From assembly GCA_003164495.1 (NCBI GenBank), contig PLTN01000165.1, positions 14,985 to 78,984 of the forward strand: a stretch of DNA of 64,000 nt, in the 5' to 3' direction. Below the pieces are notes generated by a model. It had not been told where the DNA came from. It saw nothing but the letters and a program-made list of their open reading frames with translations, and ran no database searches. Position numbers and translations under genes: made by a program. This DNA comes from Vulcanimicrobiota bacterium. GTDB lineage: Bacteria > Vulcanimicrobiota > Vulcanimicrobiia > Vulcanimicrobiales > Vulcanimicrobiaceae. Positions 1-63,994 of this stretch are shown here, in pieces (positions within the stretch are counted from its first letter, which is position 1; every line of letters starts with the position of its first letter).

Positions 1-1862
1 GCTTCGGCCCACCACCCGTCGAGCTCCGAAAGATTGAGCCCGCCGTTGACCAAGACTTTCATCCCGCTCGTCCCGCTCGCTTCCCACGGCCGTCGGGGCG
101 TATTGATCCACACGTCGACGCCGCCGACCAGCTGTTCGGCGAGGAGAAGATCGTAGTCGGCCAGCAACGCGACCCGCGTGCGCAGCTCGGGTCGTTGCGC
201 GAACTCATACCATTGGCGGAGCAACTGCTTCCCCTGCACGTCGTGCGGATGGGCTTTGCCGGCAACGACGATCTGCGCGGGACGCTCGGGATTGGTAAGG
301 ATTCGGGCCAGCCGGTCGGGATCGCGCAACAGCAACGCGGTGCGCTTGTACTCCGTAAAGCGTCGCGCGAACCCGAGGGTCAGCACATCGGGGTCGAAGA
401 CGCGGCGCGCTTCGTCGATCCGTTCGACGGCAGCGCCCGACATCTCGAGCTGGCGGCTCAGCTTCCCGCGCGTCCAGTCGACGAAGTGCGCGCGATTGCG
501 CCGGCGCATCGTCCATAGCTCGACGGCCGGCAGTTGCTCGATTCGCTCGCTTACCGGCATGGGAACACCGCGCCAGCGGTCGCGCAAATTTAACGTAGTC
601 CAGAGCTCGTCGGCGGCTTCGCTGTCCCACGACGGAACGTGAATCCCGTTGGTGACGTGCCCGACGGGAATCTCGGCGAGCGGAACCTCCGGAAAGAGCG
701 GAGCGAACAAACCGCGGCTCACCTCACCGTGCAGCTCGCTGACGCCGTTCATGCGCGACGCACCGCGAATCGCGAGGTAGGTCATGTTGAATGCTTCGCC
801 GGCGTCGTTCGGGTGCTCGCGGCCGAGCGCGAGCAGCTGGTCGATTCCCACGTTCAGCTCCGCGGCGTACGGCGCGAGATACTTCACGGGAAAACTCGGA
901 TCGAAGCGATCGAACGCGGCGGCGACCGGCGTGTGCGTCGTGAACACGGTCCCCGCCCGCGCGACCGTCAACGCAACGTCGAATGGGACGCCGTGATCGT
1001 GGGCGATCCAGCGAGCGCGCTCGAGCACCGCGAACGCCGCGTGGCCTTCATTGAGATGACACACGTCGGGATCGAGGCCGAGTTCGTGTAGCAGACGCCA
1101 CCCGCCGAACCCCAGTGCGACTTCTTGCTGCCAGCGCACTTCCGGATCGGCGTCGTAAAGTTGCGCGGTGATCCCGCGGTCGGACGGCGTATTCGCCGGA
1201 TCGTTGCTATCCAAGAGGTAGAGCCAAAGGGCGCCGACGTTCACGGCCCACGCGCGCAGATAGACGACGCGCCCGGGGAACGAAAGCGGGATACGGATCC
1301 ACGCCCCGTCTTCACCGCGGACCCGTCGAATCGGCGCGTCGCTGGGATCGGTGAACGGGTAGAGCTCGCGCTGGTTCCCCTGCGCATCGAAGGCCTGCCG
1401 AAAGTAGCCCTGTTGGTAGAGCAGTCCGATGCCGACGACGGGCACGCCGAGATCGGTCGCCGACTTCATCAGGTCGGCGGCGAGGACTCCCAGACCGCCG
1501 GCGTAAATCGGCAACGCTTCACTGAGCCCGAACTCCATGCTGAAGTATGCCGTCAGTCCCAAGCTGCGCGCCGCCGCCGATTGCGGGAACCAGAGCGGTG
1601 CCCTGCTGCGTCGCTCGCGGTCGTCGAGCAGCGCCCGCACTTGCGTGCAGAACGTCTCGTCGGCAGCCAACGCCTGAAGCTCGCGCGAGCCGACCGAGGT
1701 GAGGACGGCCCACGCATTGCGCGAGGCCGCCCACAGCTCCGGGTTGAGCCGCATCCACACCTTGTCGGCGCGATGCGACGAGATCAGCCGCATGTCCAGT
1801 GCCAAATCTTCAAGCCCCCGCAGCGGCGTCGGGAGCTCGATCTCGGCGCGAAGATCAGCCAC
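1..1862 (-). CDS. glgP: alpha-glucan (glycogen) phosphorylase, C-terminus cut by window edge
   Basis: Releases glucose-1-phosphate from alpha-1,4-glucans in the cytoplasm. It is missing from the ORF track because its stop lies outside the window; I read it from the reverse strand. About 620 residues are present. An N-terminal DUF3417-like segment (DKVWMRLNPELW) is followed by the phosphorylase core: YFSMEFGLSEALPIYAGGLG, HLNEGHAAFA, FARRFTEYKR and, near residue 600, WEASGTSGMK, whose Lys corresponds to the PLP-binding lysine. Perhaps 200 residues are missing. The GTG start at 1862 lies 2 nt after the TAA of the upstream phosphoesterase gene, suggesting translational coupling. The family assignment (DUF3417-type GlgP) is secure. 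Confidence 0.93.
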   Translation of the reverse strand, partial: MADLRAEIELPTPLRGLEDLALDMRLISSHRADKVWMRLNPELWAASRNAWAVLTSVGSRELQALAADETFCTQVRALLDDRERRSRAPLWFPQSAAARSLGLTAYFSMEFGLSEALPIYAGGLGVLAADLMKSATDLGVPVVGIGLLYQQGYFRQAFDAQGNQRELYPFTDPSDAPIRRVRGEDGAWIRIPLSFPGRVVYLRAWAVNVGALWLYLLDSNDPANTPSDRGITAQLYDADPEVRWQQEVALGFGGWRLLHELGLDPDVCHLNEGHAAFAVLERARWIAHDHGVPFDVALTVARAGTVFTTHTPVAAAFDRFDPSFPVKYLAPYAAELNVGIDQLLALGREHPNDAGEAFNMTYLAIRGASRMNGVSELHGEVSRGLFAPLFPEVPLAEIPVGHVTNGIHVPSWDSEAADELWTTLNLRDRWRGVPMPVSERIEQLPAVELWTMRRRNRAHFVDWTRGKLSRQLEMSGAAVERIDEARRVFDPDVLTLGFARRFTEYKRTALLLRDPDRLARILTNPERPAQIVVAGKAHPHDVQGKQLLRQWYEFAQRPELRTRVALLADYDLLLAEQLVGGVDVWINTPRRPWEASGTSGMKVLVNGGLNLSELDGWWAE

Positions 1863-1864
1863 GA

Positions 1865-4234
1865 TTAATCGTCGTCATGGGCTGCAACCGTCGGACGACT
1901 TGGATCGAACGCGCCGAACGCCGGCTCCGGCGTGTGACCACGCACCGCGTGCCACAGAATATCGTTGAGAACGGCATCCGGAACGCGGTCTTCGTGCGAG
2001 AAATCGAGCGCGTTGGAGTCAGCAGCGCGATATGCGGTCACACCGTTCTTCGCATCCAGGTCCGTGCCGGGCGACAATACGTCGAATGGCAGCAGATCCG
2101 GCTTCGTGGTAAAGGCAGCGAACAGGGGGCGCGCGCCGGCATCGTAGGGTGTCATCGGCGGCAGCCCCAGCAACAACTCTATCGTGCGCAGCACGCTCGA
2201 GGTCGTGTAGCGCTCGTGCAGAACGCCGCCGGCGGTATACGGGCTCACGACATAGAGCGTCGAGCGCTGCTCATCAACGTGATCCGGTCCGTTCTGCGCG
2301 TCGTCTTCGAGAATGAAGATCGCGGTGCTCGCCCAGTCCGCGCTGTGCGAGATGGCATCGACGAGCATCCCGACGGCCTGATCGTTGTCGGCGACCATCG
2401 CCGCGGGCGTGTTCGCGCCGGTTCTGGTTCCGGCGGTATGATCGCGCCCAAAGCGCACGATTTCGAGCTGCGGCAGGGTGCGACTGCGCTCGAAGGCGTC
2501 GAATTCGCGCTTCCACTCGCGGAAGCGCGCGACGTCCGGGATGTTGAGGTCGAACGCCGCGAAGTCCGGGTCGACGCGTCCGACGAGTCCGCTCTCCATC
2601 GTCGATACCGGCATACGCGTCGCGGCGTCGCCGTCATCGTTCGCGCCCGCAGTAACGAACTCACCGTAGTCGCGCAACGCGACGTGATGGTGCGCCGCGT
2701 CATCCCAGACGTAACCGGCGTGCGGCACCGAGGCGTCCGCGCCGTCCTCGAAGTCGTAGAAGGCGCGCCGGCCGTCGTATTGCGGCGGCCACATCTTTTC
2801 AAGATAGTCGTTGGCAAAGGCAGCATTCGACCAGTTATGGCCATCGGCGCTCACGTGGGCGTCACAGAAAAAGCGGTCGAACGTACCAAAACGCGCGGCC
2901 AACGCATGCTCGTTGGGCGTGACGGCGCGACCGAACAAGACCAGTGCCAGATCGCCGTCGGCACCGCTCACGTCGCCGAGGACCTGATCGTACGTCCGGT
3001 TCTCTTTGATGATGTAGATGACGTGGCGGATCGGACCGTTTGCCCGCACGATCGGATCCGGGGGCGGCGTCGATCGCGCGAACGGCGCACCGAGTGATTC
3101 GACGGCGCCGAGGCCTGCCGCCAGCTCCGCGTCGGTCGGAATCGGAATGCGCCGCAGCGCGCCGACGAGGTTGTCGGCAACGTAGTCCGGGCTCGATGCC
3201 GATTCCGGACGGTAGGCGGGGTTGGCGTGTCCGCTCTCGCCTTTTCCGTCTGCGATCAGCAGCGCATTCGAGGCCGCTTCCACGGCCACTGCAGTCGGAT
3301 ACCAACCGGTCGGGATCGCGCCCAGCGCACGGAGTCCGCCGGCGGTTGTGCGGAACACCGCGACCGCGTTTGCCGCACCGCACGAAACATAGAGCCGGTG
3401 GCCGGCGAGCGCCAGCGCGTTCGGCGAATCGCCGACAAGGCCGCGAAGCGCGAACGGCAGCCGTGCGCGCTGGACGACGCGTTCGCGCGAAAGATCGATA
3501 ACCGCAATGTCGTCGTCATCGCTATCAGCGACATAGAGCCGGGAACCGTCGCGCAGCAGCGCCGCCGGGTGCAGCCCGACGCGAATTCGCGCGCGCACGC
3601 GACCGCCAGCGACATCGACGGCGTCGACAAACGATTCGGCGCGATCGGCGACGTATAGCGTTCTTCCGTCGTTGGCGAAGGCCAGGGCTGCGGGATGACG
3701 GCCGACCGCGATCACGCGCCGCAACATCCCGTCGTTCGCATCCACGAGCGCCACCGCATTGGCCAGATCACCGGCGACCGCGAGTTGCTTGCCGTTCGGC
3801 TCGCGCGCGATCGCCACCGGAAAGAACGGAACGGGGAGACTGATCGCCCGGTCGACACGTCCGTGGATCGGATCGACGTGCGCAATCTGCTCGCCAAAGG
3901 TCGCGGTATTGGGGATCCACATGCCGTCACTATCGACGTCGCGCAACGGCGCGCCGAACGCATTGCCCAGTACGATCGTCGATTGCACGGCAAGTGTGCG
4001 CGCATCGAGCATTCGCAACACCGGCTTGCGGTGCCCGGTCTCGAGCTCGAATGCGTGTTTGCCGTCGCGCGAAAGCACGATTCCGCTCGGTAACGTACCA
4101 ACCGTTTGCAGCGACGCCGGCGGCGCGGCGATATGCCAGCCGTTGGGCAACTCGATCGACGGGCCGAGCTGCGCCAACGCCCACGAGGAGCACGCGACGA
4201 TGGCGATGACAAGCGCTAAAACGGCACGTCGCAT
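1865..4234 (-). CDS. secreted beta-propeller (YncE-like) / phosphoesterase fusion protein
   Basis: A 789-residue exported protein. I start it at the ATG giving MRRAVLALVIAIVACSSWALA, a good Sec signal peptide, rather than the track start 22 codons upstream. Residues about 40-390 are repeated short beta-strand units of YVTN/YncE propeller type (GKHAFELE, SNALLIADGKGE). From about residue 400 a phosphoesterase-family (PF04185, acid phosphatase/phospholipase C-like) domain follows, with HVIYIIKENRTYDQVLGD, SADGHNW and FILEDDAQNGPDHVDEQR. Known relatives are annotated as bifunctional YncE/alkaline-phosphatase-superfamily proteins; the substrate is unknown. It is followed almost immediately by glgP, although the two functions are not obviously linked. 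Confidence 0.82.
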   Translation of the reverse strand: MRRAVLALVIAIVACSSWALAQLGPSIELPNGWHIAAPPASLQTVGTLPSGIVLSRDGKHAFELETGHRKPVLRMLDARTLAVQSTIVLGNAFGAPLRDVDSDGMWIPNTATFGEQIAHVDPIHGRVDRAISLPVPFFPVAIAREPNGKQLAVAGDLANAVALVDANDGMLRRVIAVGRHPAALAFANDGRTLYVADRAESFVDAVDVAGGRVRARIRVGLHPAALLRDGSRLYVADSDDDDIAVIDLSRERVVQRARLPFALRGLVGDSPNALALAGHRLYVSCGAANAVAVFRTTAGGLRALGAIPTGWYPTAVAVEAASNALLIADGKGESGHANPAYRPESASSPDYVADNLVGALRRIPIPTDAELAAGLGAVESLGAPFARSTPPPDPIVRANGPIRHVIYIIKENRTYDQVLGDVSGADGDLALVLFGRAVTPNEHALAARFGTFDRFFCDAHVSADGHNWSNAAFANDYLEKMWPPQYDGRRAFYDFEDGADASVPHAGYVWDDAAHHHVALRDYGEFVTAGANDDGDAATRMPVSTMESGLVGRVDPDFAAFDLNIPDVARFREWKREFDAFERSRTLPQLEIVRFGRDHTAGTRTGANTPAAMVADNDQAVGMLVDAISHSADWASTAIFILEDDAQNGPDHVDEQRSTLYVVSPYTAGGVLHERYTTSSVLRTIELLLGLPPMTPYDAGARPLFAAFTTKPDLLPFDVLSPGTDLDAKNGVTAYRAADSNALDFSHEDRVPDAVLNDILWHAVRGHTPEPAFGAFDPSRPTVAAHDDD

Positions 4235-4320
4235 GAAGTGTGCGTTCGGTGAAACGACGGTGCGCTCCCCGCAATTCGCTGAAGAATAGGGGGATAACAC
4301 AGCCTTAAGTCGCGCTGCCT

Positions 4321-4587
4321 ATGATGGTCTGCACACCCATGTTGCTCGTCAACAGCTTCCTCGCATTTCTCTTGCGCGGCGGCCCGGCTATGATCGCCCT
4401 GCTCTTTTGCTCGTTGTTGGCGATGGCGGTGATCATCGAGCGACTGCTGTTCTTCGCGCAGCAACACGTTGACGCGGAAACGTTGGTACGACAACTCGGC
4501 GCACGCATCGCGCTGAACGACATCAACGGTGCCATCGCGATCTGCGAGCAAAACCACGGGTTACTCCCACGCATCCTCGAGCAATGA
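4321..4587 (+). pseudogene. ExbB/TolQ/MotA-type proton channel, N-terminal fragment
   Basis: Open frame of 88 residues with one strong membrane segment (GGPAMIALLFCSLLAMAVIIERLLFF), then [30 protein letters not shown] and a TGA. This matches the first transmembrane helix and the following cytoplasmic region of ExbB/TolQ-family proteins. Full members have three helices and over 200 residues, so the rest is missing. Directly after the stop the same frame continues with unrelated sequence, pointing to a deletion junction rather than a natural short protein. Confidence 0.65.
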
Positions 4588-4740
4588 TGCGTACCTCGCG
4601 GGACCGGCACAACAGTTGCAGGCAGCCCCGCGGGCGAGGACACGAGCCATTTCCACGAAGCGACCCGCGATCGGGCGTTCTACGAATCGACGCAAACGTA
4701 CGGTCTACCCGTCGTTTATCCCGGCACATCGAAGACGTAG
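4588..4740 (+). pseudogene. C-terminal remnant of an unidentified gene
   Basis: Continues in the frame of the ExbB fragment after its TGA and ends at TAG 4738-4740. It translates as a plausible soluble protein tail ([17 protein letters not shown], then [12 protein letters not shown]) with no start codon of its own. The family is not recognised. Its position between two other truncated genes supports debris from a deletion. Confidence 0.4.
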
Positions 4741-4822
4741 CCATCGTCGCTCCGGAAGCCGGCCGCCTTCTCACCGCAGCCTTTCCTGAGTTGTCGCTCG
4801 CCTGTGCCGACCGATTGCTCAC

Positions 4823-5218
4823 CGAGAAGGCTTTGATGCAATCGTATGCCGCCGGGATACCGCACAGCATGCCTTGCATCCAAAACGTATCCCGCAGCGC
4901 CTGCGACACTGTTGATCCCGGCCGGTTGGCCCCGTAGAACGGCGCGCTCAGATCCTTGAAGAGCTGCGAGCGCTCGGCGTGCACGCCGGCCCGGAAGTTA
5001 TCGAACACATCGATCGGGGTACCGCCCGGGTTCGCGTCCGACTTCACCATGATCGGCGGCACCGAGCCGATGAGGACCGCTTTGGCGACGCGGCTCGATC
5101 CGTGGCGGCGCATATAGCGCACTACTTCGCCACCGCCCGTGGAGTGGCCGACGTGAATGGAGTCTTTCAGCTCCAATTTCTGCACGAGCGTCGCGAGATC
5201 GTCCGCGTACGTGTCACA
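4823..5218 (-). pseudogene. alpha/beta hydrolase (non-haem chloroperoxidase type), internal fragment
   Basis: The minus frame reads [20 protein letters not shown], then [19 protein letters not shown], ending with [21 protein letters not shown]. This is typical of cofactor-free chloroperoxidase/esterases of the alpha/beta-hydrolase fold and includes the nucleophile elbow GHSTGG. Upstream of DTYADD the frame does not match the family (oxyanion-loop region lost). After KAFS it turns into low-complexity arginine-rich shadow sequence, so the lid end, acid residue and catalytic His are gone. The track ORF 4523-5266 overstates its length. It is almost certainly inactive. Confidence 0.75.
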
Positions 5219-58264: not shown

Positions 58265-58306
58265 GTCATCCCGAGCGGAGCGCCGCAGGGCGCGTAGTCG
58301 AGGGAC
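58265..58306 (+). repeat. dispersed repeat, copy 1
   Basis: GTCATCCCGAGCGGAGCGCC followed by a variable middle and AGTCGAGGGAC. The first 20 nt are identical to the copy inside dnaE2 at 62225, and the same end motif (GTCGAGGGAC) closes both. The form GTCATCCCGAG...TCGAGGGAC resembles REP-like intergenic repeats common in some soil bacteria. Confidence 0.75.
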
Positions 58307-58407
58307 AGCGAGCATCTTTCCATTCGCCAGTGCAATGCCGGCGCACGTTGTTGTTACACCACTCGTCCGCCCTACGGCGTCCGAGCTCGGCGACGACGGT
58401 TAGGGCG

Positions 58408-58431
58408 GTCCCTCGACAAGCTCGGGATGGC
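58408..58431 (-). repeat. dispersed repeat, inverted partial copy
   Basis: GTCCCTCGACAAGCTCGGGATG on the plus strand, which in reverse complement reads CATCCCGAGCTTGTCGAGGGAC, i.e. the start and end motifs of the repeat with a short middle. With copy 1 it forms an inverted pair flanking about 100 bp. Confidence 0.65.
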
Positions 58432-60628: not shown

Positions 60629-63600
60629 ATGGCAGCCGCCGCGCGCTACGCCGAACTCCACGCCTGGTCGAACTTCACGTTTCTCGAGGGCTCCTCGCAC
60701 CCGGAAGAACTCGTCGGCGCGGCCGTCGCGGCGGGCTTGGCCGGGATCGCGCTGACCGACCGTGACGGGCTCTACGGCGCCGTGCGGTTCGCGAAAGCCG
60801 CCAAAGAGCACAAACTGCCCGCCATCTGCGGCGCCGAGCTAACGCTCGAGACGGCCGACCCGGAACCGATCCGGCCCAGCCGCCCCGCGCGTGCGGCAAG
60901 CGAGGTGCCGACGCATACGCCGCGGATCGTCCTACTCGCCGAGAACGCGCGCGGTTACGCGAACTTGTGCGAATTGCTTTCGCTCGCGCAGTTGCGTGGA
61001 CGCAAGCGCGATGCGCGCGCGCGGCTCGACGATTTCAGCGGCCGCACCGACGGCATCATCGCGCTCTCCGGCGGCGCGAACGGCCTGGTGGAGAAAGCGC
61101 TGCTCGCACGCGACGACGACGGCGCGCTCGCGATCGGCGCGCGCTTACGCGATCTTTTCCCGGGCCGCTTCTATCTCGAACTGCAGCATCACTTACGGCC
61201 CGAGGACGGCGCCCTCGTGCAAGCGCTCACGGCGCTCGCGGGACGGCTCGACGTGCCGTACGTCGCGACCAACGGCGTCGCCTACGTCGACCACGAGGAC
61301 GCGCAGTTATGCGACGTGCTCACGTGCGTGAAATACAAAGCCACGCTCGCCGGCGCCGGCACGCTCTTACGCCCGAATGCGGAATACGCGCTCAAGACGC
61401 CCGAGCAGATGACGCGACTCTTTCACGCCTATCCGCGCGCGATCGCGAACACGCTGGCGATCGCGGAGCGCTGCACGTTCCGGCTCGAAAAGCTCGCCGG
61501 GCAGTTTCCGTACTTTCCGGTTCCCGAAGGCGAAGCGAGCCATCACTCCTATCTGCGCACGCTGGTCTACGAGGGCGCGCGTAAACGCTACGGCTGGCCG
61601 TTTTCATCGAAGGTCGAGCGCCAGCTCGAGTACGAGCTCGGCATCATCGCGCGCATGGATCTCTCGGGCTACTTCCTCGTGGTGTGGGACATCTCGCGCG
61701 AAGCCCGCGCGCTCGGCGTCCTCGGACAAGGCCGCGGTTCGGCGGCCAACTCGGCGGTGTGTTACGCGCTCGGGATCACGGCGGTCGATCCGATCGACGG
61801 CGACTTGCTCTTCGAGCGCTTCTTGAGCGAAGAACGCAACGAGATCCCCGACATCGACATCGATTTCGCGCATCAGGATCGGGAGCAGGTGCTGCAGTAC
61901 GTCTACAACCGCTACGGACGCCATCACGCCGCGATGGTCGCCGAGGTCATCACGTACCGCACGCGCTCGGCGATTCGCGACGTCGGCAAGGCCCTGGGGC
62001 TCTCGCTCGGTCAAGTCGATCAGATCGTGCGCGAATACGACGCCACGGAGTCCTTGGCCGAAACGGTCGGCGTCGCACCGCCGGCGGCGGGGAAAGCACT
62101 GCCGGCATCGGTCGAACGGCGGCGCGACTTCGATGCGGGCAGCAACATCGTGCCCTCGCGCGGCACGCCCGTTGCTCCCGGCTTCGACGCGGTCGACGAC
62201 ACCCGGTCCAGCACCTACGTTCCTGTCATCCCGAGCGGAGCGCCCTCAACTCGAAGTCGAGGGACGATCGGCGGGGAAACCGGTGCGCTGCTGTTGCGGC
62301 TATGCCGGCGCGTCAACGGCTTTCCGCGCCACATGGGCATCCACTCCGGCGGGATGATCATCACGCGCGATCCGCTGATGAGCGTCGCACCGATCGAGTG
62401 GGCATCGATGCGCGACCGCACGATCGTGCAGTGGGACAAGGACGATCTGAGCGACCTCGGGCTGATCAAGATCGACCTGCTGGGCCTGGGCATGCTCTCG
62501 CTCCTGCGCGACGCGTTCGCGCTGCACGCACGCTGTTATCCCGAGCGCCCCCCGCTCTCGCTCGAAACGATTCCGATCGACGACAAACCCACCTACGAGA
62601 TGCTCTGCCGCGCCGATTCGATCGGCGTCTTCCAAGTCGAGTCGCGCGCGCAGCAATCGATGCTGCCGCGCTTGAAGCCGAAGTGTTTCTACGACATCGT
62701 CATGCAGGTCGCGATCATTCGCCCGGGCCCGATTCAGGGCGACATGATCCATCCGTTCCTGCGCCGGCGCAACGGCATGGAACCGGTGACCTATCCGCAT
62801 CCGTCGCTCAAACCGATTCTCGAACGCACGCTCGGCGTGCCGTTGTTTCAAGAGCAAGGGATGCGGATGGCGATGGAAACCGCCGGTTTCTCGGGCGGCG
62901 AAGCCGATGAGTTGCGCCGCGCGATGGGTCACAAACGCTCGCGCGACCGGATGGCCCACATCTATCCGCGCTTGGTGAACGGCATGGTGAGCAACGGCAT
63001 CGAACGCGAGGTCGCCGAGCGGCTCTTCCACATGCTCGAAGGCTTCGCCGACTACGGCTTTCCCGAATCGCACGCCGCGAGTTTCGCGCTGCTCGCCTAT
63101 GCGTCGGCGTACGTGAAGTGCCACGAGCCGGCGATCTTTTGCGCCGCGATCCTCAACGTGCAGCCGATGGGCTTCTACTCGACCGAAGTGCTGGTGAACG
63201 ATGCGCGCCGGCATGGGGTTGTCGTGCGGCCGGTCGAGGTAAACGCCAGCGAGTGGTGGAGCTTCGTCGAACCCGACGGCGCACTGCGCTTGGGCTTTCA
63301 CCTCGTGCGCGGCATGGGCGAGGTGCAACGCGAGCACGTCGAGCGCGCGCTCCTCGAACGCCGGCCGTTCGAGGATCTGCTCGATTTCACGCGCCGCACG
63401 AAGCTGGCTCGCGAACCGCTCGAGAACCTCGCCGCGGGCGGGGCCTTCGCGCCATGGTACCCGGCACGACGTGATGCGATCTGGGCGTTGCGCGCGCTGA
63501 ACGAACGCGAAGCGCGCGGAGAACTGGGACGCGCGATGGAGATCGACGACGAACCGCCGCCGCAGTTGCTCGCGCTGAGCGCGATCGAACGTACCGCGCT

Positions 63601-63994
63601 CGACATCGCCGCCACCGGCGTCGCCGACGTTCAGCCGATCGCGCACTTTCGCGCCGAACTCGATGCGCGCCGCGTGCTCGCCGCCGAGCGATTGCCGGCG
63701 ATGCCCCAGAACCTCGTGTGCAAGGTCGGCGGCCTCGTGATCACGCGCCAGCGTCCCGGCACCGCGAAGGGTTTCGTGTTCCTCACCATCGAGGACGAGA
63801 CGGGGCTGGTCAACGTGATCGTGCGCCCCGACATCTATGAGAAGTACCGCCGCACGATCCGCGCCTCCCAATGCCTGATCATCGAGGGCGTGTTGCAAAA
63901 AGAGTCGGGCGCGATCGATGTGATCATGAAACGCTGCTGGCATTTCGATACCTCGGGTACGACCGACAAGGTCCGGGCGCGCAATTTTCATTAA
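60629..63994 (+). CDS. dnaE2: error-prone DNA polymerase III alpha subunit DnaE2
   Basis: 1121 residues, complete. PHP domain at the N-terminus (ELHAWSNFTFLEGSSHPEEL), palm with PDIDIDFAHQDRE (catalytic Asp pair, about residue 408), GQGRGSAANSAVCYALG, KIDLLGLGML (about 613), HHH and a C-terminal OB fold (VFLTIEDETGLVNVIVRP). Lacks the long C-terminal region of replicative DnaE, as DnaE2 does. SOS-induced translesion polymerase acting with ImuB and the clamp. Residues about 490-550 are a low-similarity insertion containing a genomic repeat (see 62225). Start chosen at ATG 60629, 16 nt after the SOS box. Confidence 0.94.
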   Translation: MAAAARYAELHAWSNFTFLEGSSHPEELVGAAVAAGLAGIALTDRDGLYGAVRFAKAAKEHKLPAICGAELTLETADPEPIRPSRPARAASEVPTHTPRIVLLAENARGYANLCELLSLAQLRGRKRDARARLDDFSGRTDGIIALSGGANGLVEKALLARDDDGALAIGARLRDLFPGRFYLELQHHLRPEDGALVQALTALAGRLDVPYVATNGVAYVDHEDAQLCDVLTCVKYKATLAGAGTLLRPNAEYALKTPEQMTRLFHAYPRAIANTLAIAERCTFRLEKLAGQFPYFPVPEGEASHHSYLRTLVYEGARKRYGWPFSSKVERQLEYELGIIARMDLSGYFLVVWDISREARALGVLGQGRGSAANSAVCYALGITAVDPIDGDLLFERFLSEERNEIPDIDIDFAHQDREQVLQYVYNRYGRHHAAMVAEVITYRTRSAIRDVGKALGLSLGQVDQIVREYDATESLAETVGVAPPAAGKALPASVERRRDFDAGSNIVPSRGTPVAPGFDAVDDTRSSTYVPVIPSGAPSTRSRGTIGGETGALLLRLCRRVNGFPRHMGIHSGGMIITRDPLMSVAPIEWASMRDRTIVQWDKDDLSDLGLIKIDLLGLGMLSLLRDAFALHARCYPERPPLSLETIPIDDKPTYEMLCRADSIGVFQVESRAQQSMLPRLKPKCFYDIVMQVAIIRPGPIQGDMIHPFLRRRNGMEPVTYPHPSLKPILERTLGVPLFQEQGMRMAMETAGFSGGEADELRRAMGHKRSRDRMAHIYPRLVNGMVSNGIEREVAERLFHMLEGFADYGFPESHAASFALLAYASAYVKCHEPAIFCAAILNVQPMGFYSTEVLVNDARRHGVVVRPVEVNASEWWSFVEPDGALRLGFHLVRGMGEVQREHVERALLERRPFEDLLDFTRRTKLAREPLENLAAGGAFAPWYPARRDAIWALRALNEREARGELGRAMEIDDEPPPQLLALSAIERTALDIAATGVADVQPIAHFRAELDARRVLAAERLPAMPQNLVCKVGGLVITRQRPGTAKGFVFLTIEDETGLVNVIVRPDIYEKYRRTIRASQCLIIEGVLQKESGAIDVIMKRCWHFDTSGTTDKVRARNFH
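62225..62266 (+). repeat. dispersed repeat inside dnaE2
   Basis: GTCATCCCGAGCGGAGCGCC then TCAACTCGA and AGTCGAGGGAC. Its first 20 nt equal the intergenic copy at 58265. It is read in frame as VIPSGAPSTRSRGT, without disrupting the gene, between the palm and the RRVNGFPRHMGIHSGG segment, where normal DnaE2 proteins have a short spacer. Confidence 0.78.

Follow-up and report, generated by a model that had tools for sequence, protein, structure and literature searches.

A dispersed REP sequence within the open reading frame of dnaE2 in a Vulcanimicrobiota bacterium and its recurrence across Eremiobacterota

Introduction

How does a dispersed palindromic repeat come to lie inside the open reading frame of an error-prone DNA polymerase, and does it alter the enzyme? 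The question is raised by the dnaE2 gene of a Vulcanimicrobiota bacterium, located in a window of 64,000 nucleotides taken from a draft genome of 5.37 Mb. An initial annotation of this window had noticed the repeat within the gene, and the observation stands: the copy lies in a frame that runs from start to end without stops (Table 1). According to the explanation that we consider very likely, a REP sequence (TGTC-tagged, 42 nt long, and usually arranged in head-to-head pairs) was inserted in the ancestor of the genus into a disordered loop in the thumb of DnaE2, and has since been inherited as a passive spacer of 14 codons.

Table 1. Features of the window, REP-bearing reading frames elsewhere in the genome, and REP sites in dnaE2 genes
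Feature	Location	Strand	Remarks
dnaE2	60629..63994	+	ImuC-type error-prone DNA polymerase III alpha; intact at 1121 aa, no internal stops
DnaE2 hypervariable loop	62066..62272	+	About residues 480-548, about 70 codons; between two conserved helices; thumb region
In-frame REP copy in dnaE2	62225..62265	+	41 nt; residues 533-546; arms match genomic REP consensus; orthologous copy in congener
Intergenic REP	58265..58306	+	Consensus form, 42 nt
Intergenic REP	58408..58431	-	Short 24-nt form GCCATCCCGAGCTTGTCGAGGGAC; head-to-head partner of the 58265 copy
Hydantoinase A ORF	This genome		Head-to-head REP pair inside; orthologue in congener without the pair
GH38 mannosidase ORF	This genome		Single REP inside
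Thioredoxin-like ORF	This genome		Single REP inside
livM-livG	G000:C101:17461-17551 (L011)		REP pair between, one open frame through both
REP in thumb loop	Window, L172		VIPSG..SRGT
REP in thumb loop	L164, L191		LRQAQ; reverse orientation
REP in thumb loop	L187, L188		VMLSLSKH
REP in thumb loop	L205		CHPEERAAGAPRR
REP in thumb loop	L219		CHPELVEGP
REP near residue 640	L186		CHPEQSRG
REP near residue 640	L197		CHPERSRRAQDD
REP near residue 910	L164, L191		VTLSLSKG
REP in PHP-domain loop near residue 80	L160		CHPEPVEG
REP in PHP-domain loop near residue 80	L201		RHPELVEG

The dispersed REP family

The initial annotation had reported two further copies of the element upstream of dnaE2, one of them inverted, and both were found (Table 1). 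Their distance of only about 4 kb from the dnaE2 copy had been pointed out, but with some 140 copies genome-wide this proximity carries little weight. A genome-wide search allowing up to 2 mismatches, a count that had been proposed as a check, returned 141 matches against 2 for the reversed pattern. For the 18-mer of the repeat at up to 3 mismatches, 0.29 matches are expected per window and 2 exact copies were observed; together with the genome-wide count, this rules out a low-complexity coincidence, which had been raised as a possible objection.

In stretches taken around about 100 copies, 53 copies are exactly 42 nt long, with the consensus GTCATYCCGAGCGGAGCGCCGNAGGGCGCGYAGTCGAGGRAC, and a short form of 24 nt, GTCATCCCGAGCTTGTCGAGGGAC, is likewise common in this genome. 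The TGTC tag is present in 28 of 30 copies examined, a T preceding nearly every copy. Covariation argues for a conserved hairpin: among 32 distinct 42-mers, four pairs vary on both sides and 99.4% of cells are paired, and none of 500 shuffles attains the covariation score. The stem is interrupted (4 + 2 + 5 bp) and encloses a loop of 4 nt, with T5 paired to A41 and A4 facing C42. A stable hairpin was not supported when the element was folded as single-stranded DNA. The 3' end of the consensus reads GGGAC or GGAAC, followed by variable bases, and no unpaired CCA tail was found on it.

Inverted pairs separated by no more than 600 bp are almost always oriented head to head (51 of 54). The REP-associated transposase that the initial annotation had envisaged did not turn up: the Y1 (TnpA-REP) profile, PF01797, is absent from this genome (G000), its congener (G001) and every REP-rich relative (G002, G006, G010 and G021). 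Many head-to-head pairs, including that of the window (58265-58431) and others in the same genome, measure 140-210 bp, and motifs such as GCGAGATAATC and CCAGGGCAACT recur in their flanks. What moves may therefore be a larger, MITE-like element, and the dnaE2 copy would then represent just one end of it.

The dnaE2 copy and its loop

The dnaE2 product scores 1247 bits against the NCBIfam model for error-prone DNA polymerases (NF004225, cut-off 939) and contains PHP, DNA_pol3_alpha, finger, HHH_6 and OB domains; a separate dnaE1 is present in the same genome (G000:C27). Close dnaE2 relatives that bear a name come nearly all from the Eremiobacterota (WPS-2/Vulcanimicrobiota). DnaE2 with the REP codons is presumably an active enzyme.

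The REP copy consists of three segments, GTCATCCCGAGCGGAGCG-CCCTCAACTCGA-AGTCGAGGGAC, and its 41 nt, GTCATCCCGAGCGGAGCGCCCTCAACTCGAAGTCGAGGGAC, would be read as VIPSGAPSTRSRGT. All 18 bases of the left arm and 11 bases of the right arm agree with the consensus, their order and spacing being as expected, and the central third is degenerate. The initial annotation had described about 60 codons of low similarity with the repeat among them. This stretch does not represent a single insertion: the REP accounts for only 14 of the roughly 70 codons of the loop, and the loop is also present in relatives, where it measures 65-207 aa between fixed motifs. Nor does the loop belong to the palm, as had been proposed: when aligned with E. 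coli DnaE, it falls between residues 461 and 493, in the thumb region. In an AlphaFold model of DnaE2 (34 sequences, mean pLDDT 83), pLDDT falls below 50 only at residues 78-93, 499-544 and 700-705 and at the C-terminus. The two main stretches, 78-93 and 499-544, are both REP sites, and the REP codons of this dnaE2 close the second of them. The thumb loop is thus predicted to be disordered.

Age of the insertion

In the sole congener compared (G001; dnaE2 at L172, 89-90% identical), the same codons are occupied by GTCATTCCGAGCGGAGTGCGTGCAGCGCAGAGTCGAGGAAC, also 41 nt long. An apparent frameshift in this congeneric gene was dismissed, as it corresponds to an assembly gap with nn. Because the congener has a REP at the same place, the insertion probably predates the split of the two species, and since the most abundant REPs of the congener are of other subtypes, its dnaE2 copy seems to have been inherited and not to be a new insertion. 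The initial annotation had held that an insert shared by all relatives, with the intergenic copies derived from it, would speak against the entry of a mobile repeat; the insert is shared within the genus, but is missing from relatives beyond it. In the absence of a known empty site among members of the genus, we infer the insertion step, which would have taken place in the genus ancestor, from these more distant relatives, whose loops are not alignable residue by residue. The arms of the two congeneric copies differ in a coordinated manner (CCC/GGG versus TCC/GGA), so that stem complementarity is kept, and the differences are synonymous (ATC/ATT, GGG/GGA). These changes may reflect compensation, gene conversion or a second insertion at one place.

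Recurrence in dnaE2 genes of Eremiobacterota

REP sequence is found in 12 of 57 Eremiobacterota dnaE2 genes, a count that leaves out a possible partial copy (L212); the loops of most others are REP-free. The sites fall into four coil or disordered places (approximately residues 77-95, 480-546, 637-648 and 905-915), and the repeats are present in both orientations and in several reading frames (Table 1). Compared with its close relatives, the gene at L160 shows a gain of about 24 nt and a loss of 6 nt, in frame. The carriers are dispersed across the tree and correspond to about ten to twelve events if L164 and L191 are taken separately. Each carrier genome tested contains 5-148 exact-pattern REPs, against 0 for the reversed control. 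REP insertion in dnaE2 is therefore recurrent and tolerated. Because several reading frames are in use, no particular peptide is being kept, and the term domesticated, used at first for the repeat and implying a function, finds no support in relatives, which have different REP peptides, in several frames and at four loops, or no REP at all.

REPs in other genes

The initial annotation had asked whether copies also lie in other reading frames, and they do. On the stretches around about 100 copies, a subset of the approximately 140 in the genome, four further ORFs hold REPs or are bridged by them, none of which is a repair gene (Table 1). The livM-livG case is possibly a gene fusion or a lost stop codon.

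Control genes were taken from 30 REP-bearing genomes, a selection biased towards dnaE2 carriers and REP-rich genomes. No REP was found in dnaE1 (0/27) or rpoB (0/30), three rpoB matches having been discarded as codons of the conserved peptide RYAEEY. By comparison, REPs are present in uvrA in 3 of 28 genomes and in carB in 4 of 28, always in an open frame, and two of the four carB copies share a common site. One further match in carB (L300) and one in uvrA (L283) were left uncounted, as they look like antisense half-site chance matches. Fisher tests of dnaE2 gave p = 0.008 against dnaE1, p = 0.56 against carB and p = 0.37 against uvrA, rough values given that related genes are non-independent. 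Specificity for repair genes was dropped as a firm claim in view of the metabolic gene carB, which weakens the special status suggested for repair genes.

The gene for the replicative polymerase, dnaE1, of genome G042 (L261, ORF 1498-5040) is interrupted after ...ETYGVA by CLKHDAQVWMADGSRKPIERVQPGD...LLGLLIGDGSL...GVVTHN and resumes with CYQEQVM; by eye, this is an apparent intein.

Relation to known palindromic repeats

CGTC-tagged REPs, for which TGTC is a listed tag variant, have no dedicated transposase and are mostly intergenic, some copies being intragenic and in frame (Di Nocera et al. 2013, PMC3733652). They are characterized by a stem of 8-9 bp that opens with a paired A and T, a loop of 4-5 nt and a 3' tail that is mostly CCA (PMC3733652). 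DnaE2 and UvrA of other bacteria are explicitly among the REP-tagged proteins, and intragenic REPs were proposed to find seats in flexible linkers and loops or, alternatively, to help in creating mutators (Di Nocera et al. 2013, PMC3733652). The repeat of the window fits a REP that is nearest to this CGTC/TGTC superfamily. The TGTC tag, the covarying palindromic stem, the 4-nt loop, the predominance of head-to-head dimers, the in-frame intragenic minority and the lack of a Y1 transposase (PF01797) accompanying the repeats are all shared. By contrast, Eremiobacterota/Vulcanimicrobiota lie outside the five phyla from which CGTC repeats were listed, interruptions replace the continuous stem, the first stem A is unpaired and no CCA tail was found.

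Two other systems bear a more limited resemblance. Rickettsia palindromic elements (RPE) are also small palindromic repeats lying in frame in the ORFs of likely functional proteins, and are likened to the present repeat by way of insertion only: here the host belongs to a lineage mostly of soil and bog, to judge from sample sources, and is not obligate intracellular, and the intragenic copies are a minority. The GTAG REPs and REPINs associated with TnpA-REP (RAYT) are likewise short palindromes dispersed in high copy number and in inverted pairs; however, the tag here is TGTC, with no GTAG, and neither this genome nor its REP-rich relatives encode a Y1 transposase.

REPs that keep the reading frame, those of DnaE2 and UvrA among them, have thus been known since 2013. 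Titles and abstracts in the literature held nothing relevant on palindromic repeats of Eremiobacterota, and the new elements are the phylum, a tally across many dnaE2 genes, the coincidence of the sites with predicted disorder, and the metabolic control set against repair-gene specificity. In-frame REP insertion, including that in DnaE2, is thereby extended to Eremiobacterota with a count (12/57, four loops, roughly ten events, none in dnaE1 or rpoB). The contribution of REPs to new protein loops can thus be measured, and the neutrality of such insertions becomes testable.

Origin and effect of the dnaE2 copy

In the explanation preferred here, REPs would land in many genomic places. Because the length of the unit is almost divisible by three and stops are missing from most of the six frames, a fraction of random insertions would survive in frame; those in flexible loops would be tolerated, and those in structured parts purged. 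The dnaE2 copy would stem from the REP population of the genome, by insertion, and, given that no REP peptide is conserved, its own peptide presumably does nothing in DnaE2. It is extremely unlikely that the loop evolved REP-like letters by itself. The 3' end of the copy, SRGT-IGG, does overlap the ancestral family motif RGP-IGG, and the right arm is possibly part host sequence, but a chance origin is disfavoured by the agreement of both arms with the consensus in order and spacing, by the different REP subtype at the same codons in the congener, by the other lineages, in which this loop harbours REPs of the type dispersed in the respective genome, and by the genome copy counts.

REPs are known mRNA elements, and the embedded hairpin could act in the dnaE2 mRNA, through stability, pausing or attenuation, and not via the peptide. 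The complementary outer arms kept in both congeneric copies, together with the synonymous nature of their differences, are consistent with such a role. However, the element is decayed in its centre, and as RNA the dnaE2 copy shows no folding advantage over shuffles (z -0.02), the intergenic copy being somewhat better (z -1.79); we therefore regard a function in the mRNA as very unlikely. An adaptive change, in which the REP was selected for altered mutagenesis (compare Di Nocera et al. 2013 on replication and repair genes), would agree with its presence in 12 of 57 dnaE2 genes although coding regions are mostly without REPs, with the finding that uvrA is also struck, and with the REP-tagged DnaE2 published for other bacteria (PMC3733652). 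It is nevertheless quite improbable: carB is struck at a similar rate, no peptide is conserved, given the varied frames, orientations and loops of the insertions, and the sites are predicted to be disordered or coil. Moreover, the 50 genomes counted contain 3 exact-pattern copies in dnaE2, where an even spread over whole genomes would give 1.6, and hence show no strong excess over intergenic density. It is very improbable that DnaE2 loops recurrently gain REPs because loop lengthening tunes the mutator polymerase, a selfish repeat then shaping the mutation rate of its host.

Other repeats in the same loops

Short tandem peptide repeats, such as HPDVTAD, CANASDA, GDTGRQ, DTKGAER and GGAQGDI, adjoin REP codons in the dnaE2 thumb loop (L187, L188), in uvrA (L278, L284) and in carB (L311). 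The same loops therefore grow by tandem duplication too, sometimes of REP pieces. Finally, the dnaE2 thumb loops of L177 and L194 share the stretch PAFRRSHGRRESKSGE.ATS.GCEVAG, which does not match this REP type and may represent another repeat family or common ancestry.
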